Part shown: positions 5,167 to 33,240 of the stretch, in pieces
How the letters are laid out: each line of letters starts with the position of its first letter
How positions within the stretch are numbered: position 1 is the first letter of the stretch
Source of the DNA: Candidatus Woesebacteria bacterium GW2011_GWB1_39_12
Lineage (GTDB): Bacteria > Patescibacteriota > Microgenomatia > UBA8517
Assembly: GCA_000993405.1 (NCBI GenBank)
Contig: LBWB01000012.1
Coordinates: forward strand, 101,777 to 143,536
Reading direction: 5' to 3'
DNA length: 41,760 nt
Position numbers and translations under genes: made by a program
The notes under the pieces: model-generated
Told to the model about the DNA's origin: nothing
What the model saw: the letters and a program-made list of their open reading frames with translations, nothing else
Databases searched by the model: none

Positions 5167-5218
5167 ATAGTTAATTAAAATATATACTTTTCGTTGGTGT
5201 AAATCAATGCAAAGGTGG

Positions 5219-5230
5219 TATTATAGAAAG
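5219..5230 (+). promoter_or_regulatory. -10 element placed for a leaderless transcript
   Basis: TATTAT at 5219-5224 is followed by six bases and the ATG at 5231. A TTGGTG roughly 18-19 bases upstream may serve as a -35. This layout argues for the start at 5231 rather than the in-frame ATG at 5207, which would lie upstream of the transcription start. Confidence 0.6.
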
Positions 5231-7207
5231 ATGATATTCTCCAGGTTAAGCAAAAATCCCTTTCTAGTTATCATTTCAATATTTGTACTAATCGTATTAT
5301 TTTCATTTCTAAGCCTTGTACTTCTTCGTAACAGATTTTTTAACCTTTTTGTCGGGAAAATTCCTAAAAATGTTTCGGAAAATATAAAAATCGAGAAGTT
5401 TGCTTCGGTGGAAGACTTCAAGAAATATATTTCGGAAGCCCGGGAAACCCAGTCCTATTCATTCAGGGGATTTGGAATGGCAAATTTAGAAATAGCTGAA
5501 CCTGCCTTAGACTCAGGTATGCCTTTAATAAAAGAAGCCCCAGAGAGAGTATCTGAGACAAATGTACAGGTTAAAGGCATTGACGAACCCGACATCGTAA
5601 AAACTAACGGCAGAAGCATTTTCTTTTCCCAAAATTTACCCTTTTATACAGCGCCTATATTCCTCGAGCAAAGTGATTCGCGATTCATGCCCCAAATTAA
5701 TGCTTCCGAGACCAAAATAATTAAAGGATTTCCCCCTTCAGACTTGGTAAAAGACTCTGCTATAGCAAAAAGCGGCAACCTACTGCTTGCAAATAATAGC
5801 CTTATAATTTTTTCAGAAGCTGATAACTTTATTTACGGCTATGACGTAAGCGATCCTAAAAATCCTCGGGAAAAGTGGAAATTTGAAATCGACAACAGGA
5901 ATTACCTTGTTTCCTCAAGACTAACAAACAATAAAATTTATGTTATAGTAAGTCAAAGTCTCAACGAGGCAAGTCCCTGCCCACTACCTTTTTCTTCAGA
6001 CGCCAAAGGCGTAATTATACCTTGTACGGACATTTATCATCCTATTAATCCTGTTCCTGTCGACCAAACGTACACAATCTTCTCTCTGAACCCGTCAAAC
6101 GGAAAATTAGAAAATAAAATTTCCTTTGTCGGCTCAAGCGGTCAATCGGTCTTTTATATGTCCAAAAACTTTATATATATTACATATCCTTACAACGAGA
6201 ACTTAAGTTCGCTTTACTATAATTTTTTCAAAGACAAAGCAAGTGATCTTATTCCCGAGGAAACTCTTATTAGTCTTAAAAATTTAGAAAGCTACAAAAT
6301 AAGCGAGAATGCGAAAATGGTAGAGGTTCAGATAATATTAGAAAAACTTTTTAGTTCGCTATCCGTGGATGAGAGAAAAAGGGTTGAAAATGAAATAAAT
6401 AATAGAAGCAATGACTACCTAAAAGATTATGTAAGGGATTACCAAAAGTCGGGGATTGTAAAAATTAGTAACGCTCATTTGGACATAGACAGGGTAGGAA
6501 GCATCCCGGGAACGCCCTTAAATCAATTCTCTCTGGACGAATATCAATCTTCACTGCGAATAGCCGTAACCATATCAAGTAATTTATTCGGTTTTAGCCA
6601 AACTGAATCCGCAAATGACGTTTACGTCCTCGACAAAAATTTAGGAATTACCGGTGAAGTCTTGGACCTCGGACTTTCTGAACGAATTTACTCAGTCAGA
6701 TTTATCGAAGATAAAGGCTATGTCGTTACATTTAAGCAAGTTGACCCTTTTTATGTCATCGATTTGGCAAATCCCAACAATCCCGAGAAGGTAGGAGAAT
6801 TAAAAATTCCCGGATTCTCTTCCTATCTTCACCCCATAACAAAGGATAAAATTTTGGGAGTTGGTAGAGAAGATGCAAATGTAAAACTATCGCTTTTTGA
6901 CGTAGGGAATCCCAAAAATCCCAAAGAGGTCTCAAAATACTCCCTTGACGAATATTGGACAGACGTTTCGACCACTCATCATGCCTTTTTATTAGACGAT
7001 AAGCATGAAATTTTCTTTTTACCAGCAGGAACAAGCGGCTACATATTTGGCTATCAAGGTAATGAATTAAAGCTTCTAAAAGTCGTAAGCGATGTCTCAG
7101 CCCAAAGAGCACTTTTTATCAATGATTACCTATATGTAATAGGCAATACTAAAATTAGCGTTCTTGACGAAAACACTTGGAATGAAGTAAATTCCCTGAC
7201 TTTTTAG
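5231..7207 (+). CDS. Membrane-anchored beta-propeller domain protein (PF09826 type)
   Basis: This is a 658-residue protein with a single N-terminal membrane helix (residues ~9-30) and a large outer domain. The segment ETNVQVKGIDEPDIVKTNGRSIFFS, about 110 residues in, is the signature of secreted proteins with a C-terminal beta-propeller. Repeated blade-like strings follow, such as IFSEADNFIYGYDVSDPKNP, YVIDLANPNNPEKVGELKIPGF and LFDVGNPKNPKEVSKYSLDEYW. A charged, probably helical insertion of ~100 residues sits in the middle. The function is unknown; a scaffold or binding role at the surface is likely. The start was chosen from the -10 position. A small membrane protein gene follows 14 bases later. 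Confidence 0.85.
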   Translation: MIFSRLSKNPFLVIISIFVLIVLFSFLSLVLLRNRFFNLFVGKIPKNVSENIKIEKFASVEDFKKYISEARETQSYSFRGFGMANLEIAEPALDSGMPLIKEAPERVSETNVQVKGIDEPDIVKTNGRSIFFSQNLPFYTAPIFLEQSDSRFMPQINASETKIIKGFPPSDLVKDSAIAKSGNLLLANNSLIIFSEADNFIYGYDVSDPKNPREKWKFEIDNRNYLVSSRLTNNKIYVIVSQSLNEASPCPLPFSSDAKGVIIPCTDIYHPINPVPVDQTYTIFSLNPSNGKLENKISFVGSSGQSVFYMSKNFIYITYPYNENLSSLYYNFFKDKASDLIPEETLISLKNLESYKISENAKMVEVQIILEKLFSSLSVDERKRVENEINNRSNDYLKDYVRDYQKSGIVKISNAHLDIDRVGSIPGTPLNQFSLDEYQSSLRIAVTISSNLFGFSQTESANDVYVLDKNLGITGEVLDLGLSERIYSVRFIEDKGYVVTFKQVDPFYVIDLANPNNPEKVGELKIPGFSSYLHPITKDKILGVGREDANVKLSLFDVGNPKNPKEVSKYSLDEYWTDVSTTHHAFLLDDKHEIFFLPAGTSGYIFGYQGNELKLLKVVSDVSAQRALFINDYLYVIGNTKISVLDENTWNEVNSLTF

Positions 7208-8207: not shown

Positions 8208-9398
8208 CTAAAGTTCGCAGGAAGTAACTGTCTCACCGGCAACACAGGTATCTGTTCCCGCATTGCCTTTAAGAACGTCATGGTCGGTTCCGCCGTCGAG
8301 ATAGTCATTTCCGCTGTCTCCTTCCATCTCGTCGTTTCCTTCCTGACCGTACATTTCATCGTCTCCCGATTCGCCCGACATATTGTCATTCCCGGTTCCC
8401 CCGTACATTTTGTCATTGCCTGCACCTCCCGATAAAAGATCATTATCTTCTTCGCCATAAATTTCGTCATTCCCGGCCGCTCCTTTAATCTTATCCTCCC
8501 CAATTCCACCCCAAATTTTGTCGTTCTCACTGCCTGCGTCAATTTTGTCGTTGCCGGCGCCTCCGTAAATAAGGTCGTCTCCCGAACCGCCATCCATTTT
8601 GTCATTCCCATCATTGCCATACATAAGATCATTTCCGCTTCCTCCTTCCATATCGTCGTTTCCGTTGCCTCCGATTACGACATCATTTCCTTCTCCGCCA
8701 TCAAGCTCTCTGTCATTCCCTTCTGCGCCTACTACACAGTCATCTCCGTTATCAGCGTCAACCCGATCTCTTCCACCCTTGGCTAAGATAAGCTCGCTTG
8801 CCGGAGATCCGTCTATATTGTCGTTTCCTTCGGTTCCTTCAATCACATTGGTTATTTTTCCGGCAATTAACTTACATTCTTCGGGAATCTCAACAGGCGG
8901 AAGTTGGCTTCTCCAGATGATGTCAAAGACGACTTTTGCTTCCTGATAGTCATTTCCTGCGTCAGCCGGAAATTTCACTTTTACTCTGAAATTTTTATCT
9001 GTTCCGGGAGAAAATGTACCAAGACTAATTGGAGGCAAGTCAAACAAATCTTGAAGTTTACCGCTGAAGACAGTGCTCGAAAGGCTCATTTCAACAATTT
9101 CTATATCTAAAATTTCTGCAAAATTCTTTTCCTCTGCCGTTTTGAAAGCAGTCATTTCTACATCCTGGGAATCAGAACCCGTAACTTTAACGTTAAAAAC
9201 TTTTTCAGGGACTTCATCCCCGGGAAACATGTTGCTAACGACAAACATGGGATCAGGCGGGGATCCGCCATTATAGGTAATGAATAGGGGATCGTCTGCA
9301 TGAATTACGTTTACACGACTTTGGGTATATACGTAATAAAGCCCGTACAGGACAAAAGGCAGAAGAATCAAAGCCAGTATTTTACTTTTGTTTTTCAT
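8208..9398 (-). CDS. Secreted protein: CalY/TasA-like region plus RTX calcium-binding repeats
   Basis: A 396-residue protein. Residues ~5-22 form a signal or anchor helix. Residues ~30-165 are a beta-rich region resembling the camelysin/TasA fold (PGDEVPEKVFNVKVTG, FSPGTDKNFRVKVKFP). From ~180 to the end run about twenty nonapeptide-type RTX repeats (GGxGNDxx), for example GGEGNDVVIGGNGNDDM and GGAGNDKIYG-like units. RTX repeats bind calcium and fold outside the cell. The tail TDTCVAGETVTSCEL holds two Cys. No RTX type I secretion genes are near, so export is probably Sec/SipW. The start is ATG 9398 rather than TTG 9467, because the 23 extra residues cross a hairpin-rich spacer. Confidence 0.85.
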   Translation of the reverse strand: MKNKSKILALILLPFVLYGLYYVYTQSRVNVIHADDPLFITYNGGSPPDPMFVVSNMFPGDEVPEKVFNVKVTGSDSQDVEMTAFKTAEEKNFAEILDIEIVEMSLSSTVFSGKLQDLFDLPPISLGTFSPGTDKNFRVKVKFPADAGNDYQEAKVVFDIIWRSQLPPVEIPEECKLIAGKITNVIEGTEGNDNIDGSPASELILAKGGRDRVDADNGDDCVVGAEGNDRELDGGEGNDVVIGGNGNDDMEGGSGNDLMYGNDGNDKMDGGSGDDLIYGGAGNDKIDAGSENDKIWGGIGEDKIKGAAGNDEIYGEEDNDLLSGGAGNDKMYGGTGNDNMSGESGDDEMYGQEGNDEMEGDSGNDYLDGGTDHDVLKGNAGTDTCVAGETVTSCEL

Positions 9399-9463: not shown

Positions 9464-10774
9464 TCAACTCCCTGGCGTGGGAGGATTTGTATCAAAAAAA
9501 TCGCTTCCTAGATCATTATCAAAACCGTCAGGAACTCTTTCCAAGGAATGACCCTCGGCAACATCCGAAGATGAAGGGTTTAAAACAGAAACATCAGTTC
9601 CATAACTCATTTGATCTATAATGTTTCCTAGAGAATCTCTTAATACAACCCTATCGCCACCATTTGCCAAACCATTTCCAATAATTTCGCCTAATTGTAT
9701 TTTCTCAGCTGAGTCGGGGATTGTCCAAAGTACGAAAACGTTGGCAGCTTTTGCCAAAATTGCGAATTGCCCGGAAGCTAAATTTCTATTACTTGTGCTA
9801 ATTGTTCTTTGCGTTCCCGAGTTATCTTCTATCTTCCAATCCTTAAGGTTGACAGTTTGAGCAGATTTATTGTAAATCTCTACCCATTCAAACGTATTTT
9901 CGTCAGATCCTGGAGGTTGAACATGATCAGCATCAACATCATAATAGACCTCGTTAATAACAATGTCTCCAGGTTGAACAGTAGGAGTAGGGGTGGGCGA
10001 ACCCCAGGTTGATGCCTGGAAAACATTGCCTTGAGAAGTTTCCTTGTCGGAGAAAAAAGAGGAGGCGAGGCCGGCAAACACAAGTGCTGCACCGAAAATC
10101 GGAACTATGGCAGTAGCTTTATGCAATCCGCCGTTTTTAGCTTTGAGGGTCGTACCCTGTAAACTATACTTGAGGGTATGACTCTTACGATCAAATAGTC
10201 TTCTTTTTAGAATCGATAATGTTTTAAAGATTTCCTTTAACAAACCTTTTAATTCCTCATAAATAACAATGGTCGCGGGAACAATGACCAAAAGCAAAAA
10301 ACCATAAGGCTGTTTGGCGAAATTAGCTACGTAGCCTAAGTAGGGGAGAGTTAGCGCGACTTTGCCGACAATTTGGTCATTGGTTATACTTCCCGAGTCA
10401 AAATCTTCGTTTGCGTCTCCTGCGGTTAGATAGACGGGGTCGGAATTGATCCCGTCAGGATAATTTTTTACCTGTATTCTGTGGGTTATTACGTTTTTCG
10501 CGTCCTTTTTGTATGAAATAATTTCACCCTGATTATAAGTTTCCGCTTTCCTGGTTATAACTATGCTTCCGGTTTTTACTGCAGGCTCCATTGAACCTGA
10601 TTGAACAATGAAGGCTTTTGGTAATGAACCCGGTTCGGCGAATCTGGACCGTACCTGGTACGGATCAAATTGCGCTACATCCAATACAAGATACGAGGCC
10701 ATTGCAGAAAAAGCGAAAAGGACCAGCGAAAGTAGTCCGATGAAAAATTTTAGGCTGACATTTTTAAAATTCAT
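9464..10774 (-). CDS. SipW-type signal peptidase I fused to a TasA-like signal and a lamin-tail domain
   Basis: 436 residues in one frame. Residues 8-31 are a membrane helix. Residues ~53-150 are a SipW/eukaryotic-type signal peptidase with nucleophile Ser61 (VQSGSMEP), His98 (VITHRI) in place of Lys, and Asp120 (TAGDAN). A second helix spans 157-172. A basic inner loop leads to a TasA-like signal (ATAIVPIFGAALVFAGLASSFFSDKETSQGN, shown in two parts: helix 221-238, then SSFFSDKETS). A PT-rich linker follows, and residues ~268-415 form a lamin-tail (LTD) domain (DIVINEVYYDV, FEWVEIYN). Protease and probable substrate are therefore one polypeptide. PYQVRS (38-43) comes from an inserted repeat. 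AAAGGAGTG precedes the ATG. Confidence 0.83.
   Translation of the reverse strand: MNFKNVSLKFFIGLLSLVLFAFSAMASYLVLDVAQFDPYQVRSRFAEPGSLPKAFIVQSGSMEPAVKTGSIVITRKAETYNQGEIISYKKDAKNVITHRIQVKNYPDGINSDPVYLTAGDANEDFDSGSITNDQIVGKVALTLPYLGYVANFAKQPYGFLLLVIVPATIVIYEELKGLLKEIFKTLSILKRRLFDRKSHTLKYSLQGTTLKAKNGGLHKATAIVPIFGAALVFAGLASSFFSDKETSQGNVFQASTWGSPTPTPTVQPGDIVINEVYYDVDADHVQPPGSDENTFEWVEIYNKSAQTVNLKDWKIEDNSGTQRTISTSNRNLASGQFAILAKAANVFVLWTIPDSAEKIQLGEIIGNGLANGGDRVVLRDSLGNIIDQMSYGTDVSVLNPSSSDVAEGHSLERVPDGFDNDLGSDFFDTNPPTPGS
10145..10186. repeat. Inverted repeat inside the peptidase fusion gene (linker)
   Basis: GTCGTACCCT and AGGGTATGAC pair over 10 bp (one G-T) around a 14-base loop that contains TGTAAAC at its edge. 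It encodes part of the basic cytoplasmic linker (SLQGTTLK) between the peptidase and the TasA-like signal, where extra residues are harmless. Confidence 0.55.
10631..10663 (+). repeat. 33-bp dispersed element, copy 1 (inside the signal peptidase gene)
   Basis: The element is CGGTTCGGC, 9 variable-rich bases, then the 15-base palindrome CCGTACCTGGTACGG (10649-10663). It matches 32401-32433 in uvrB at 28 of 33 positions. On the coding minus strand it adds PYQVRSRFAEPG to the region between the first helix and the catalytic domain. Confidence 0.8.
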
Positions 10775-10857: not shown

Positions 10858-10872
10858 CCGTACCAGGTACGG
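10858..10872. repeat. 15-bp palindrome, intergenic copy
   Basis: CCGTACCAGGTACGG is the same palindrome that forms the core of the 33-bp element in the peptidase and uvrB genes. Here it stands between CalY1 and the peptidase fusion, without the CGGTTCGGC arm, followed by another hairpin (GCCGGGCAGCGGC). Confidence 0.7.
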
Positions 10873-10918: not shown

Positions 10919-12148
10919 TTAGTTATCCGTGTCGTTGTAATGAACGTAAACGTTACCTTCAAACAGATAACTTCCTGGGTTCCATGCTGTCATCGGACCA
11001 GTTGACGGATTGCCACCATTATAATCTGCTGATAATACCAACCAGATTTTGGCACCTGTCGCAAAATTACCATCTGGTAGAGTTGGTAAATCTACACCTA
11101 AATCAGGATTGCCTGCAAAAGCAATATCTCCGCTCGCATTTGTAGTACCTTCGCCTATAAAGGCTCCAGGATTATTTCCTGGCCAACCATCAGCATAATA
11201 GATCAAGGCATAATCTGTAGTAGGGGCTAAACCTTTACCTGTTAAGGTATAGTTGAATGTTGCACTATCACCAGCCCAAGTAAGATCAGCGTAGATCTGG
11301 TCTTGATCAAGAACGGTCCATGGTCCACCCTGTACTTCGACCTCATTTTCAAGGCGTAAAGTGTTAGGCTTAGGTTCTACACTAGGACACACAAACTTTG
11401 TGTTGTTGCGTGATTGTTCCACATAGAAAGAAACATCAGCCATGTATTTATCAGTTTGGATGATATTACCAACTACTCCCGGAACATTCCATGCAACTCC
11501 AAGGTAGTAATTGTTACTTCCTACTAATGGGTCGTTAGGTAAACCGGTAAACACGTTTGGACTTACGCTATCTGCTAAAGCCCATGTGGTTGGAGTTAAA
11601 GGACCAGTCCCTTCGGTAAGTAACCGATCACACCCTTCTTGATAGATGTTATCTCCCGGTTCAGCACCCTCTTCTTCTGGATTAACTGCAGGGCTACATA
11701 TATCGGCCCAAATTTTGAATTGCATATTTTGGGCGAGTTCACCGTCAAAAAGGCTGTCGGTGTTTGCAACGTCTCCTGCTTCCAGTTCTGGCTCGTTGGT
11801 AGTTACATCATCATTATGTGTAGGAATGATGTTGACACAACCCCATGCGTTGTTATCGTAAACGTGCAAGGAAATTGTCCCTTCGCCGAAATCTCCGGGC
11901 TTAATATCCCTTAAATCAAAGAATTTTTCGGCTAAGGTTAAGTCCTTAAGTTCCCAAGTCCCAGCATTTGGATGACCATCAACTTCTTTGTTGTAGTAAC
12001 CATCATAATCGACCTTAAGATCGATTGCTCCGGCCTGTAGTACATTTCCCTTTGATGTCTCCGTGTCACTGAAGAAAGCTTGAGTTGCAAAAACGGCAAT
12101 TACCGCAATCACTCCAATAGTAAATAAACTCAATAGAGCTTTTTTCAT
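10919..12148 (-). CDS. Camelysin/TasA-like (CalY family) matrix protein with extra C-terminal domain
   Basis: 409 residues. The N-terminus is a SipW-type signal (MKKALLSLFTIGVIAVIAVF) followed by ATQAFFSDTETSKGNVLQAGAIDLKVD, the hallmark of camelysin/TasA proteins. The beta-sandwich core includes FDLRDIKPGDFGEGTISLHVYDN and LAQNMQFKIWADIC. After about residue 255 there is an additional ~150-residue beta-rich domain (LRLENEVEVQGG to YVHYNDTDN) that I cannot name. It probably forms surface fibres or a matrix after cleavage by a SipW peptidase. I choose the ATG at 12148; a GTG at 12166 lies in the ribosome-site-like AAAGGGGGTG. A long structured leader precedes it. Confidence 0.83.
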   Translation of the reverse strand: MKKALLSLFTIGVIAVIAVFATQAFFSDTETSKGNVLQAGAIDLKVDYDGYYNKEVDGHPNAGTWELKDLTLAEKFFDLRDIKPGDFGEGTISLHVYDNNAWGCVNIIPTHNDDVTTNEPELEAGDVANTDSLFDGELAQNMQFKIWADICSPAVNPEEEGAEPGDNIYQEGCDRLLTEGTGPLTPTTWALADSVSPNVFTGLPNDPLVGSNNYYLGVAWNVPGVVGNIIQTDKYMADVSFYVEQSRNNTKFVCPSVEPKPNTLRLENEVEVQGGPWTVLDQDQIYADLTWAGDSATFNYTLTGKGLAPTTDYALIYYADGWPGNNPGAFIGEGTTNASGDIAFAGNPDLGVDLPTLPDGNFATGAKIWLVLSADYNGGNPSTGPMTAWNPGSYLFEGNVYVHYNDTDN

Positions 12149-12181
12149 AATTTTAAATATATTCACCCCCTTTCTTGTTAG

Positions 12182-12389: not shown

Positions 12390-13262
12390 CTAAATATCGT
12401 TTGGTTTAGCACCCTCACACAAGAATTGCTCGTTGTGCCTTGCCTGAACAGCAGTAAACACTACGTCACCAGTTACCAAATCGGTTTGTGATGCGTTATT
12501 TACAGGTTTACCGTCGCATGTAATACCTGAATTTGCAATTGGTCCTACAGGAGTGTTATTTCCTGCCGGTCTGGGAGCTAATCCCAAAGTACCAAAACAA
12601 AAGGCTTTACCAATAAATACGTCCTGGCCTGCGGCAATTGGTTGTCCAGTACTTGAATCTGCAAGTACCCAATCGCCACCCAACGTGTCGGCTCCTTCCC
12701 CCTGTCTTATAACTGTTTCACCTTCCTCTAATACATTGTCTCCGTCATCATTCCAGAAAACAAAATGGAGATTTTCTGCAAGTTCTCCATCAAACGAGTC
12801 TGCATTCCCCGGTGCTCCCGGATCCGTACAAGTTGGATCATCGAACAACTCCGGCTCAGTACATGTGTTGTCATCGTCTTTTGTGAGTTTTGCACTTGCA
12901 CAAACCCAAGAAGGATTATCTACGTGTAAACTAATCGTATCCTCTTCCCAATCACCAGGTTTTAAGTCTCGAAAGCTGAAAAATACATCTCCTTGCCCAA
13001 GATCTTTCAATTCCCATGTACAAGAACACGGTACACCATCAGGACTACCGCCCCATGTTGATGGTGCCTCTGGTTCTTCACCGGTGGGCAAACATGCTTG
13101 ACCATTGTAGTAACAAGTGTTATCAATTTTGAGATCGAGTGCACCAGCTACCAAAACATTTCCGGTTGATGTTTCCGTGTCGTTAAAGAATGCCTGAGTT
13201 GCGAAAACAGCAACGATTGCTACAACTCCGATTGAAAATAAACTTAATAAAATTTTCTTCAT
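12390..13262 (-). CDS. Camelysin/TasA-like (CalY family) matrix protein
   Basis: A 290-residue precursor with signal MKKILLSLFSIGVVAIVAVF, then ATQAFFNDTETSTGNVLVAGALDLKID as in CalY/TasA. The core keeps FSFRDLKPGDWEEDTISLHVDNPSWVC and LAENLHFVFWNDDGDNVLEEGE, an acidic Asp-rich stretch that may bind calcium. Cysteines are frequent (CYYNGQACLP, PCSCTWEL), unlike classic TasA. The start is ATG 13262, preceded by GGTGAAAAAG. An upstream TTG would prepend 17 non-signal residues and was not used. It lies in line with CalY1 on the minus strand. Confidence 0.85.
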   Translation of the reverse strand: MKKILLSLFSIGVVAIVAVFATQAFFNDTETSTGNVLVAGALDLKIDNTCYYNGQACLPTGEEPEAPSTWGGSPDGVPCSCTWELKDLGQGDVFFSFRDLKPGDWEEDTISLHVDNPSWVCASAKLTKDDDNTCTEPELFDDPTCTDPGAPGNADSFDGELAENLHFVFWNDDGDNVLEEGETVIRQGEGADTLGGDWVLADSSTGQPIAAGQDVFIGKAFCFGTLGLAPRPAGNNTPVGPIANSGITCDGKPVNNASQTDLVTGDVVFTAVQARHNEQFLCEGAKPNDI

Positions 13263-13334
13263 CTTTTTCACCAACGATCTAATCCAGAGGCTTTTTAAGT
13301 AAAAGCTTGGCAATTAAGGGTTTTACCCCTTATT

Positions 13335-13709: not shown

Positions 13710-15179
13710 TTATTCGCAAAGATCAAGTCCGGAAAGAATTGTTTGCAGTCCTGCGTAATTTGCTGCCGAGTAGTAATGTCCTGCATCATTCGCAATTTCT
13801 GTCTGAAGATATGTTGCGTCGACGTCGGAACCGACTCCGACGACGAATATTTCAGAACCTGCAAGTCGCGCGGCATCAGCTGAATTGGCTGCAGCTACTT
13901 CCGATGAGTCAGGCGCGGGTGGCGATTCGGGTCTATTAGGATTACCGTCAGTTATGACAATCATTTTGTCCGGAGAGGTTCCATCCGTCCTGTCATGAAG
14001 ATCTCCCGGATTATTAAGTTCTCCTTTTGCCAAATCAATTCCTTCTTTAAGGTTTGTCCAGCCGCCTGAAATAAGGGTATCAATTGCCGTTTTTACGGTA
14101 GTACCGTCATCATTTAGGTGCTGGTTAAGGGAACCGAATGTCGCAAAGCTTGAAAATCCGGCATGAACTCCGGTTGTTGATAAGCCGAGTGAATCAATAA
14201 AAGCTTTGGCAGCAGTCTTAAGATCCCCTAATTCTGTTAAACTTATGCTGCCCGAACGGTCTAAGACGAGCATCACATCCGCTTGTCCGCAGGCTAGGGG
14301 AGTGGGGGAAGGAGTAAGAGAAGGGCTTACTTTTGGTGTTCCTGTAGGAGGAGTAGGTGTTACTCCGGAACAGCTGAAATTGGGGTTATTTCTTGCCTGA
14401 ACGGCTGAAAAGCTGATATTTCCCATAACTTTATCTGTTTGAGTAGCGTTATCCAATAATGACCCGTCACAATTAACTCCTCCTGTTGAATTTGCGGGCG
14501 TCCTAGGACTGTCTGCGCCTAACCCGTCCTGTGCAAGAGGAATGGGTTGAAGTAAGTTTCCGTGACACCAGACTTTACCTATATAGTATGTTTTTGAAGG
14601 AGATAAAGGTCCGGGAGTTCCCCAAAAGTTTGTCAGAGAATCGGCAAGAGTAAAAAGCCTTTTAGGCGAGAATTGTTCAAAAGTCGGCCCTTTTACTAAG
14701 TTGGGGGATTCGTCGGTTTCAAGAACATTGTCTCCGTCATCAGGCCACATCATAAAAAATGTTCTTTGGGCGAGTTCTCCGTCATCAGGGTCACCATCAG
14801 GGTCATTACAACCGTTTAAGTCGTCTTGTATTTCAGGCTCCGTACAGCTTTCATCGTCATTTTCGGTAGTTTCAATCTCCATACAGGCCCAGTAATCATT
14901 TTCGGCATGAAGACTAATTGTGTCTTCACCCCAATCGCCGGGTTTAATATCTGTGAAGTTAAAGAAAAGCTCATCGGTTAGGTCATCAAGACTCCACGAA
15001 GTTCCTTCGTTTAAAACTCCGTTGTAATAACTTTCATTGTCTATTTTTAAGTCTAAAGCGCCGGCCTGAAGAATATTATCTTTTGAAGTTTCAGTGTCAG
15101 AAAAAAACGAGCTTGTTACGCCTAAGGCTAAAGCTGTGACGACTCCTAAAGTGATGATAGAAATTAAAATTTTCTTCAT
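13710..15179 (-). CDS. CalY/TasA-like protein fused to a von Willebrand factor A domain
   Basis: 489 residues. The signal MKKILISIITLGVVTALALGV is followed by TSSFFSDTETSKDNILQAGALDLKID, the CalY/TasA hallmark, and by the core motif FTDIKPGDWGEDTISLHAEND. A Pro/Thr linker (residues ~285-297) leads to a VWA domain with an intact metal-ion-dependent adhesion site: DRSGS near residue 306 and ITDGNPN near 407. The domain ends close to the C-terminus (LSGLDLCE). VWA domains mediate divalent-metal-dependent binding, so this looks like an adhesive variant of the matrix subunit. It begins the minus-strand island and is divergent from the second SipW gene. Confidence 0.87.
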   Translation of the reverse strand: MKKILISIITLGVVTALALGVTSSFFSDTETSKDNILQAGALDLKIDNESYYNGVLNEGTSWSLDDLTDELFFNFTDIKPGDWGEDTISLHAENDYWACMEIETTENDDESCTEPEIQDDLNGCNDPDGDPDDGELAQRTFFMMWPDDGDNVLETDESPNLVKGPTFEQFSPKRLFTLADSLTNFWGTPGPLSPSKTYYIGKVWCHGNLLQPIPLAQDGLGADSPRTPANSTGGVNCDGSLLDNATQTDKVMGNISFSAVQARNNPNFSCSGVTPTPPTGTPKVSPSLTPSPTPLACGQADVMLVLDRSGSISLTELGDLKTAAKAFIDSLGLSTTGVHAGFSSFATFGSLNQHLNDDGTTVKTAIDTLISGGWTNLKEGIDLAKGELNNPGDLHDRTDGTSPDKMIVITDGNPNRPESPPAPDSSEVAAANSADAARLAGSEIFVVGVGSDVDATYLQTEIANDAGHYYSAANYAGLQTILSGLDLCE

Positions 15180-15379: not shown

Positions 15380-16036
15380 ATGCGCTACACGACATCAAGC
15401 TACCTTAGTGACTCGTTCTGGCTCGTAGACTTCTTCCTTTCTTTGTGGAAAAAAGTAAAGCCGAAAATATATAAATATCTCAGTCGTGCAATCGACTTCG
15501 AATACGACCTTTATATAGAAAGAGTTTACGGAAATCTTTTCACCGGCTTTCTGATAATATACCTGGGCTTAATCGCCTGTTTTGCGCTTACCAAATATAC
15601 CGAAAGATTAAACGGGGTGAGAATTTCAACGATTACCACAAATTCAATGAGTCCTGTTATTACTCCCGGAAGCATAGTAATTTCAGCACCTCATCAAAAA
15701 TATTCGAAAAATGATCTTGTAACCTACAAAGAAGTTAACGTAAAAACAGGTTTTGTTACCGGCAAAGCAATTACTCACAGAATTATAGATGAAGTAAATT
15801 TCGAAGACGGAAGTTTTTTTGTAACCAAAGGCGACTCAAATTCCCAACCGGATCCGGGAAGGGGAACAAAGAGTGATATCTTAGGCAAAGTAGTTTTAAT
15901 TATTCCCTTTTTGGGGTATTTTGACGCGGCAATTAAGTCATTTCCCGGCTTTTTAATTTTTATAGCAATTCCGGCAATCTATCTGATAAAACACGAGCTT
16001 GTATACTTAAAGGAAGCTAACCGTAAGAGAAGTTAA
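15380..16036 (+). CDS. SipW-type signal peptidase I
   Basis: A 218-residue membrane serine protease of the SipW/eukaryotic class. There is an N-terminal cytoplasmic region of ~50 residues, a helix at ~54-72, catalytic Ser89 (TTNSMSP), His133 (AITHRI), the aspartates of KGDSNSQPDPG (~151-158), and a C-terminal helix (~188-206) followed by a basic tail. In Bacillus, SipW cuts TasA-like precursors; here three such precursors lie next to it, which supports the same role. The long N-terminal extension before the first helix is unusual. Its 3' end overlaps the convergent broken gene by 30 bases. Confidence 0.88.
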   Translation: MRYTTSSYLSDSFWLVDFFLSLWKKVKPKIYKYLSRAIDFEYDLYIERVYGNLFTGFLIIYLGLIACFALTKYTERLNGVRISTITTNSMSPVITPGSIVISAPHQKYSKNDLVTYKEVNVKTGFVTGKAITHRIIDEVNFEDGSFFVTKGDSNSQPDPGRGTKSDILGKVVLIIPFLGYFDAAIKSFPGFLIFIAIPAIYLIKHELVYLKEANRKRS

Positions 16037-31134: not shown

Positions 31135-33240
31135 ATGAATACATTTAAACTAAAATCCGACTATAAACCCATCCCAGATCAGGAAAAGGCCATAAATGCT
31201 CTTTGTGGGGGTGTTCAAAACGGAATTGATTACCAAGTTCTATTAGGTGTAACTGGTTCCGGCAAGACCTTCACGGTCGCAAACGTCATTGAGCGCCTTC
31301 AAAGACCCGCGCTTATAATTTCACACAATAAAACTTTGGCGGCACAACTTTATCAGGAATTTAGGGATTTTTTTCCAGAAAACGCTGTTTCTTTTTTTGT
31401 TTCTTATTACGATTATTACCAGCCTGAAGCGTATATTCCATCCACGGATACATATATAGAAAAAGACTCCGACATAAATGAACTTATTGATAAATTACGC
31501 CTTGCAGCAACAACAAATCTTCTGACCCGTCGAGACACAATTGTCGTTGCCTCGGTTTCGTGCATATACAACATCGGTTCTCCCCGGGAATATGGACATT
31601 TTGTCTTTGAAATTTCAAAGGGTGTAAAAATCGGGAGAAAACAAATCATAGACAGGCTTGTTGATCTTCAGTACGAAAGGGGAGATTTCGGATTTCATAG
31701 AGGAACATTTAGAGTGATGGGAAACACTATCGACATCTACCCAGCCTATCAGGACGAGGGAGTAAGACTAGAACTTGGAGAGGATAATATTAAAGACTTA
31801 ACAATTATAAATCCAGTTTCCGGCTCACAGATCACTGATCACAAATCACCTGTCACTAATTTTGTTCTCTATCCGGCAAAACATTACGTAACCGACCCAA
31901 GTAAAAATAAAAATGTCTTTGAGGAAATTAAACGCGACTTAGCCGAAAGAATAACTTTTTTTAAGAAAAACGGGAAAGAGTTGGAAGCTTATAGACTCCA
32001 AAATAGAGTCAAATACGATCTCGAAATGATTTCCGAACTTGGCTATGTCAAAGGAATAGAGAATTATTCACGCTATTTCGACGGCAGAGCCCCGGGAGAT
32101 CCACCTTATACGCTTCTTGATTATTATCAGGAACCATACAATAACGACTGGCTTACCTTTATTGATGAAAGCCATATTACTTTTCCCCAGATAAGAGGCA
32201 TGTATAACGGCGACGTTGCCAGAAAGAACCTTCTTATCGATTACGGCTTCAGGCTCCCGGCTGCGTATGACAACCGACCTTTGAAGTTTGAAGAGTTCAT
32301 GCGAAGAATTCCGGGTTTTATTGCAACCAGCGCAACTCCTTCGGAGTGGGAAGTGGGAATGGCAAGAGAAAGTGCATCAATATTGAGATCTAAGGTAACA
32401 CGGTTCGGCAAACCTGTCCCGTACCAGGTACGGTCTACATTAGACGAACCTGGCGTAGTTCAACAGCTCTTAAGACCAACAGGGATACCCGATCCGAAAG
32501 TAGAAATTCGTTCAGCCAGAAACCAGGTTAGTGATGTAATAGACGAAATTAAAAAAGTTGCTAAGAGAGGCCAAAGAACGCTTGTTACAACCCTGACCAA
32601 AAGAACCGCCGAGGATTTGAGTCAATATTTAATCGAGCAGGGTATGAAAGTACACTATCTTCATTCTGACGTGGCAACACTCGAGAGAAGCGATATATTG
32701 GACGATCTAAGGCGCGGTAAATACGATTGCATTATCGGAGTTAATTTACTTCGTGAAGGACTTGATCTTCCGGAGGTTTCGCTTGTCGCAATTTTGGACG
32801 CAGATAAAGAAGGATTTCTTCGAAGCGAAGTCAGTCTAATTCAAACAATGGGGCGCGCAGCAAGGCACGTCGAAGGAAGAGTAATTCTATATGCCGATAA
32901 TGTAACCGGATCAATGGAAAGAGCAATTGCGGAAGTTGAGAGGCGGAGAAAATATCAGATTAAGGTTAACAAAAAATACGGCATTAAACCTACTTCAATC
33001 ACCAAACCTATAAGGGAAAGACTGGTTGAGGAAGAGGAAGAGTCCGTTCTTGATAAACTTTTCGAAAAGACTGAAAAAACTTATTTGAAGCTTCCTGATA
33101 TTGAACTAGATTCTTTAACTCCCATGGACAAAAGAAAACTAACTGTAAAGCTTCGTCGGGAAATGAAGTTAGCTGCTCAAGACCTGAACTTCGAACTCGC
33201 AGCAGAAATAAGAGATAAGATTAAAGAACTTGAATTTTAA
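31135..33240 (+). CDS. uvrB: Excinuclease ABC subunit UvrB
   Basis: 701 residues, slightly above the usual ~665. Walker A is in LGVTGSGKTFTVANV, the damage-probing beta-hairpin in YYDYYQPEAYIPSTDTYIEKD, Walker B in FIDESHITFPQI. Motifs V-VI are in GVNLLREGLDLPEVSLVAILDADKEGFLRS and QTMGRAARH. The UvrC-binding UVR motif is at the C-terminus (AAQDLNFELAAEIRDKIKEL). The extra length is largely two in-frame insertions: a heptamer array (31826-31860) before FVLYPAKHYVT, and the 33-bp palindromic element (32401-32433) in the segment between SATP and LLRPTG. UvrB verifies lesions in nucleotide excision repair. Confidence 0.97.
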   Translation: MNTFKLKSDYKPIPDQEKAINALCGGVQNGIDYQVLLGVTGSGKTFTVANVIERLQRPALIISHNKTLAAQLYQEFRDFFPENAVSFFVSYYDYYQPEAYIPSTDTYIEKDSDINELIDKLRLAATTNLLTRRDTIVVASVSCIYNIGSPREYGHFVFEISKGVKIGRKQIIDRLVDLQYERGDFGFHRGTFRVMGNTIDIYPAYQDEGVRLELGEDNIKDLTIINPVSGSQITDHKSPVTNFVLYPAKHYVTDPSKNKNVFEEIKRDLAERITFFKKNGKELEAYRLQNRVKYDLEMISELGYVKGIENYSRYFDGRAPGDPPYTLLDYYQEPYNNDWLTFIDESHITFPQIRGMYNGDVARKNLLIDYGFRLPAAYDNRPLKFEEFMRRIPGFIATSATPSEWEVGMARESASILRSKVTRFGKPVPYQVRSTLDEPGVVQQLLRPTGIPDPKVEIRSARNQVSDVIDEIKKVAKRGQRTLVTTLTKRTAEDLSQYLIEQGMKVHYLHSDVATLERSDILDDLRRGKYDCIIGVNLLREGLDLPEVSLVAILDADKEGFLRSEVSLIQTMGRAARHVEGRVILYADNVTGSMERAIAEVERRRKYQIKVNKKYGIKPTSITKPIRERLVEEEEESVLDKLFEKTEKTYLKLPDIELDSLTPMDKRKLTVKLRREMKLAAQDLNFELAAEIRDKIKELEF
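31826..31860 (+). repeat. Heptamer array inside uvrB
   Basis: Five 7-base units of the form CACNNAT or close (CACAGAT, CACTGAT and so on) lie in the coding sequence and read as QITDHKSPVTN. They interrupt the conserved run from NPVSG to FVLYPAKHY. The units share CACAGAT with the array inside uvrA. Confidence 0.75.
32401..32433 (+). repeat. 33-bp dispersed element, copy 2 (inside uvrB)
   Basis: CGGTTCGGC, nine bases, then CCGTACCAGGTACGG. It matches 10631-10663 at 28 of 33 positions and encodes RFGKPVPYQVRS, sharing PYQVRS with the unrelated signal peptidase. It sits in a stretch that is ~25 residues longer than in Escherichia coli UvrB. Confidence 0.8.

Follow-up and report, generated by a model that had tools for sequence, protein, structure and literature searches.

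Signal peptidases process many substrates, and we know of none that forms one chain with a substrate of its own. TasA is cut by SipW, and LepB of E. coli cuts aromatic P2' residues poorly, a restriction known from E. coli and not from the bacteria considered here (PMC10269814). In TasA fibres, the N-terminal strand of a subunit is inserted into the following subunit (PMC9674648). The component families of the present protein, the ER-type signal peptidase, the SipW-type signal and the lamin-tail domain (LTD), are already known. Judged from the open literature, what is apparently new is that the enzyme is covalently linked to a substrate of its own type and that this linkage recurs. In the open-licence literature, no record of an LTD attached to a signal peptidase or of SipW with a lamin tail domain was found, nor any paper on SipW in CPR.

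Domains and predicted fold of the fused protein

The window, i.e. the whole stretch of DNA that was analysed (41,760 nucleotides from Candidatus Woesebacteria bacterium GW2011_GWB1_39_12), contains a gene that an earlier note had described as a signal peptidase fused to its own substrate. The single 436-residue frame claimed there was confirmed. It runs on the minus strand from the ATG at 10774 to the stop at 9464, 436 codons without interruption, and has the following features.

9464..10774, minus strand: fused gene, 436 aa; SipW/ER-type signal peptidase, third membrane helix with SipW-type site, lamin-tail domain
10673..10768, minus strand: first membrane helix, N-in, residues 3-34 (AlphaFold2 helix and hydropathy)
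10343..10621, minus strand: outer peptidase core, residues 52-144 (invariant residues in 95/95 relatives; SEC11C fold match)
10592-10594, minus strand: Ser61
10481-10483, minus strand: His98
10415-10417, minus strand: Asp120
10397-10399, minus strand: Asp126
10250..10309, minus strand: second membrane helix, residues 156-175 (hydropathy and AlphaFold2)
10127..10249, minus strand: basic cytoplasmic linker, residues 176-216 (charge)
10055..10126, minus strand: third membrane helix, the putative internal signal, residues 217-240 (AlphaFold2, matrix score, charge)
10058/10057, minus strand: predicted cleavage Ser239/Phe240 (SipW-type site after helix 3)
10013..10057, minus strand: predicted mature N-terminus FFSDKETSQGNVFQA, residues 240-254, TasA donor-strand-like
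9467..9976, minus strand: lamin-tail (Ig-like) domain and C-terminus, residues 267-436 (PF00932 and fold)

The LTD matched PF00932 over residues 267-392 (7.9e-20, 71.7 bits, gathering score 34.3), and its presence in the frame was borne out by the fold as well. The structure prediction proposed in the earlier note was performed with AlphaFold2 on the full 436-aa chain, from an alignment built of proteins encoded in the window and in the collected related loci. Three helices (residues 3-34, 156-194 and 217-240) and two folded domains were obtained, the peptidase core and the beta-sandwich both with confidence. Foldseek matched the peptidase domain of the model to SEC11C (6e-6) and the LTD to lamin A/C (3gef, 4.5e-6). 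The placement of helix 3 is of low confidence (pLDDT about 43-48, pTM 0.45), as is the mutual placement of the folded domains. Alignments that mixed peptidase-only with LTD-only rows misaligned helix 2, and a better alignment (A2) was used for the full-length model; a second run with peptidase rows only gave lower confidence than the full-length run.

The linker between helices 2 and 3 carries a net charge of +9 over 41 residues, and the linker charge is positive in 35 of 40 fusions. The stretch after helix 3 is slightly acidic. Because the basic charge fits a cytoplasmic location of the loop, we infer a topology with the N-terminus inside, an outer peptidase, an inner linker and a third helix, in agreement with the topology of the earlier note.

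Peptidase family and active site

The peptidase domain matched TIGR02228 (sigpep_I_arch) over residues 52-174 with 3e-26 and 92.2 bits, above the cut-off of 51.85. The SipW model NF046067, a Bacillus equivalog, scored 1.7e-26 and 92.9 bits, below its full-length cut-off of 190; by its sequence, the fused peptidase is a relative of Bacillus SipW and not SipW itself. Among solved structures, the human SEC11 subunits come closest in sequence (SEC11C in the PDB, 2.1e-7). The collected loci contained 95 peptidase ORFs, and every one has Ser61, His98, Asp120 and Asp126 (95/95), so that the complete SipW-type active site claimed earlier was upheld. None of the four varies in the subset called long-tailed peptidases here, in which the peptidase domain is followed by more than 70 residues (60/60). 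A Ser-His catalytic pair and a conserved Asp, with no Lys, mark the ER type (S26B) and are found in the fused protein, which is a predicted ER-type (S26B, SipW/SEC11/archaeal) signal peptidase I.

Operon context

The gene lies among genes for other secreted proteins.

8208..9398, minus strand: RTX Ca-binding repeat protein, next gene of the operon (ATG at 9398 likelier start than TTG at 9467)
10919..12166, minus strand: TasA-like secreted protein with SipW-type signal AFFSDTETSKGN (sequence and operon position)
12390..13313, minus strand: second TasA-like protein, secreted, with SipW-type signal (sequence, operon position)
13710..15179, minus strand: third SipW-signal protein, VWA domain (profiles)
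15380..16036, plus strand: stand-alone second SipW-type signal peptidase, Ser/His/Asp kept

Relatives in which peptidase and LTD are split are collinear, with TasA-like protein, peptidase, LTD and RTX-repeat protein in this order. In two Gottesmanbacteria loci (L007, L008) four separate genes encode a SipW-signal protein, the peptidase, the LTD and an RTX-type protein, while the window and most fused relatives have the same order with the two middle genes joined. The N-terminal domain of the RTX protein at 8208-9398, rtxN, marks a conserved partner of the peptidase/LTD gene; it was found directly after peptidase/LTD in most fused-relative neighbourhoods and in both Gottesmanbacteria split operons.

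Further observations were made in the surrounding DNA. The VWA-bearing SipW-signal protein (13710-15179) adjoins the two TasA-like proteins, and a Beta_propel (PF09826) protein (5207-7207), whose N-terminal part includes a hydrophobic stretch, lies beside the operon. The perfect palindrome CCGTACCWGGTACGG occurs three times in the window (10649-10663, 10858-10872 and 32419-32433; 0.01 expected) and four times genome-wide. One copy lies inside the fused ORF, in an insert after helix 1.

Recurrence of the fusion

A search for the same domain order had been suggested, and searches were performed at three ranks: phylum (380 genomes), class (374) and family (50). The joined layout was found in dozens of related genomes, which are independent Patescibacteria MAGs. 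Peptidase and LTD share one ORF in 31 cases among the loci examined, the window's included, and are adjacent same-strand genes in 24 pairs, two of which are the same contig fetched twice. These counts are not frequencies, because loci with long open frames were fetched on purpose and the long-tailed set is thereby deliberately enriched. The split pairs commonly overlap by 4 nt. Uninterrupted frames of at least 300 codons hold about 55 of the 131 peptidase matches listed for the class (rough count). Viral contigs were scanned for further fusions and yielded one weak peptidase relative only. The fusion was new to the author of the earlier note, and no literature record of it was found; however, it is not unique but a recurrent arrangement in Patescibacteria with several kinds of passenger.

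In the peptidase tree the window falls into a supported 9-row clade of LTD fusions only, nested in a supported clade of 18 rows, all of them long-tailed peptidases. A repeated origin of the fusion appears likely from the tree, on which the label fused or alone changes 11 times, though well-supported branches force only one change. The simplest origin would be that two genes, adjacent beforehand, lost the stop or frame break separating them.

Long-tailed peptidases carry other passengers as well, namely RTX repeats (L084), a camelysin/TasA-type domain (L036) and Ig-like domains (L088). In L084 (964-2109) the signal peptidase is joined to RTX Ca-binding repeats, which in the window belong to a separate neighbour gene. 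In L036 (1318-2646) it is apparently joined directly to the camelysin/TasA-type domain, and a clear cleavage motif is absent.

The internal signal and its cleavage motif

The sequence at the end of the third helix, LASS|FFSDKETSQGN, is a SipW-type cleavage site; the second SipW-type signal noticed earlier is present. A matrix was trained on the separate secreted proteins from the same loci; it gave VFAGLASS|FFSDKETSQG a score of 24-26 bits, a value reached by 0/200 shuffles. A hydrophobic helix, small residues at -3 and -1 and an FFSDTETS-like motif, the features of a SipW-dependent-type signal, are all found in the fused protein. Alignment with TasA places the cut at Ser239|Phe240, with Phe241 at P2'. 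The curated profile for SipW-dependent signals, TIGR04088, did not match the fused copy, but this lowers only the formal label, because the 34-position profile also misses most of the neighbours. PF12389 (TasA/camelysin) had no match in the fused protein either; the N-terminal motif alone is common to both. Of the "TasA-like substrate" proposed earlier, the signal and the N-terminal strand motif therefore stand, whereas the passenger itself is an LTD, and the TasA-like proteins have genes of their own next to the fusion.

The matrix recognised a SipW-type site past helix 3 in 41 of the 60 long-tailed peptidases (p <= 0.02). To avoid circularity, sites were located in a second pass from the residues past the cut only. 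P1 was then A/S/G in 37/39 fused proteins compared with 12/39 at P2, and P3 was A/S/T/G in 32/39 compared with 10/39 at P4; the sequences behind these counts are related, and their kinship inflates the Fisher p-values. Phe occupies P2' in 29/39, and Asp243, Asn250 and Ala254 of the mature-side stretch are nearly invariant among the fusions. About a third of the long-tailed peptidases (20/59) have no clear cleavage motif. The retention of the -3/-1 rule inside fused chains argues for their being cut. Whether the LTD is released or kept anchored had been left undecided in the earlier note, and the retained -1 and -3 residues favour release, as a prediction.

Proposed mechanism and alternatives

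We infer the cleavage, the cutting enzyme and the role of the LTD as follows. The precursor would be cut at the third helix by an active site of its own kind, so that the three-helix peptidase stays and the LTD is released; we give this reading a probability of about 0.6. A signal peptidase of the SipW/SEC11 type would be formed by helices 1 and 2 with the outer Ser-His(-Asp) peptidase between them. The chain would return to the cytoplasm via the basic linker and re-enter the membrane as helix 3, which would serve the LTD as its SipW-type signal. Acting in cis or on a neighbouring copy, the peptidase would cut after Ser239, leaving the three-helix enzyme in the membrane and releasing an LTD with the TasA-like N-terminal strand FFSDKETSQGNVF. 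The same peptidase would also process the TasA-like proteins of its operon. The LTD is probably an accessory subunit (adapter, cap or adhesin) of TasA-like surface material; the similarity in kind between its predicted start and the TasA strand suggests that it may dock on the TasA-like neighbours.

An uncut fusion, in which helix 3 is an anchor and the LTD a permanent outer domain keeping the peptidase near surface material or its substrates, is unlikely. A fusion as such would anchor the LTD, and L036, L060, L094 and L099, for example, are long-tailed peptidases without a clear cleavage motif. However, most fusions keep both the small -1/-3 residues and the mature-side motif despite a very divergent helix 3, and an anchor needs neither. 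It is also rather improbable that the LTD is released by another enzyme. In the window's genome, which also encodes a LepB, the stand-alone SipW-type peptidase at 15380-16036 retains Ser, His and Asp, adjoins the operon and could do the cutting. In 20 genomes with long-tailed peptidases, most of them with an LTD, the situation is different: in most, TIGR02228 has no match over the cut-off other than one long-tailed protein, and the fused enzyme is thus the only SipW-type candidate to cut both its own site and the TasA-like neighbours. One genome has two matches over the cut-off, both fused (G655), one has an additional stand-alone peptidase (G631), and one has another long-frame match below the cut-off (G269). 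The remaining weak matches, in frames of about 190-210 codons, are probably ordinary LepB. The full set of catalytic residues in 60/60 fused copies also speaks against a foreign cutter.

Two further explanations would make the fusion only apparent. Two products could arise from one frame through an internal translation start before helix 3, and a TTG at residue 217 would yield a normal-looking signal peptide. Its Shine-Dalgarno match is weak, however, and the fused relatives L012, L043, L047 and L048 have no start codon before helix 3; a conserved start codon at this position was looked for among the fused relatives and none was found, which leaves this explanation very improbable. The genome is a draft of 56 contigs and split relatives exist, as an assembly or sequencing error joining two genes would have it. 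The earlier note had raised a missing stop at 10050-10200 and had named homologues that are always split as grounds for dropping its claim. Both doubts are removed by the same uninterrupted frame in many independently assembled MAGs of several families (L012, L041, L042, L045 and L046 among them). The fusion is therefore real; an assembly join is ruled out, and we give error of this kind practically no weight.

The reading with self-release may extend beyond this locus. We see an even chance that the fused protein represents a self-releasing secretory precursor, recurrent in Patescibacteria, in which the peptidase cuts its own attached substrate, the passengers are interchangeable (lamin-tail, RTX, Ig-like, camelysin/TasA-type) and the enzyme and the first substrate of a surface-fibre operon are fixed at 1:1.

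Comparison with known systems

The recurrent natural fusion offers a ready intramolecular substrate for the study of site choice by ER-type signal peptidases, and the collinear split operons allow a clean before-and-after comparison. Little is known about the surface structures of Patescibacteria; here the locus points towards a TasA-like system at the surface that includes a lamin-tail subunit.

Secreted bacterial PF00932 proteins resemble the LTD of the fusion in Pfam and fold match; a record of their attachment to a signal peptidase was not found, whereas the LTD described here is attached. The fibre proteins TasA and TapA have a SipW-type signal and a donor-strand-like N-terminal motif, as does the passenger of the fusion, which has TasA-like neighbours. 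They adopt the TasA/camelysin fold, however, and the passenger the lamin-tail fold. SEC11A and SEC11C, the catalytic subunits of the eukaryotic signal peptidase complex, match the peptidase core in sequence and fold but carry no attached substrate. SipW of Bacillus subtilis, encoded in the tapA-sipW-tasA operon, shares with the fusion the Ser-His core, two helices and an operon with SipW-type secreted proteins. Its substrates are of the FxD/FFSD type with an aromatic P2' residue, as at the predicted site of the fusion. SipW is separate from these substrates, whereas the fusion has a third helix and a secreted domain in the same chain.
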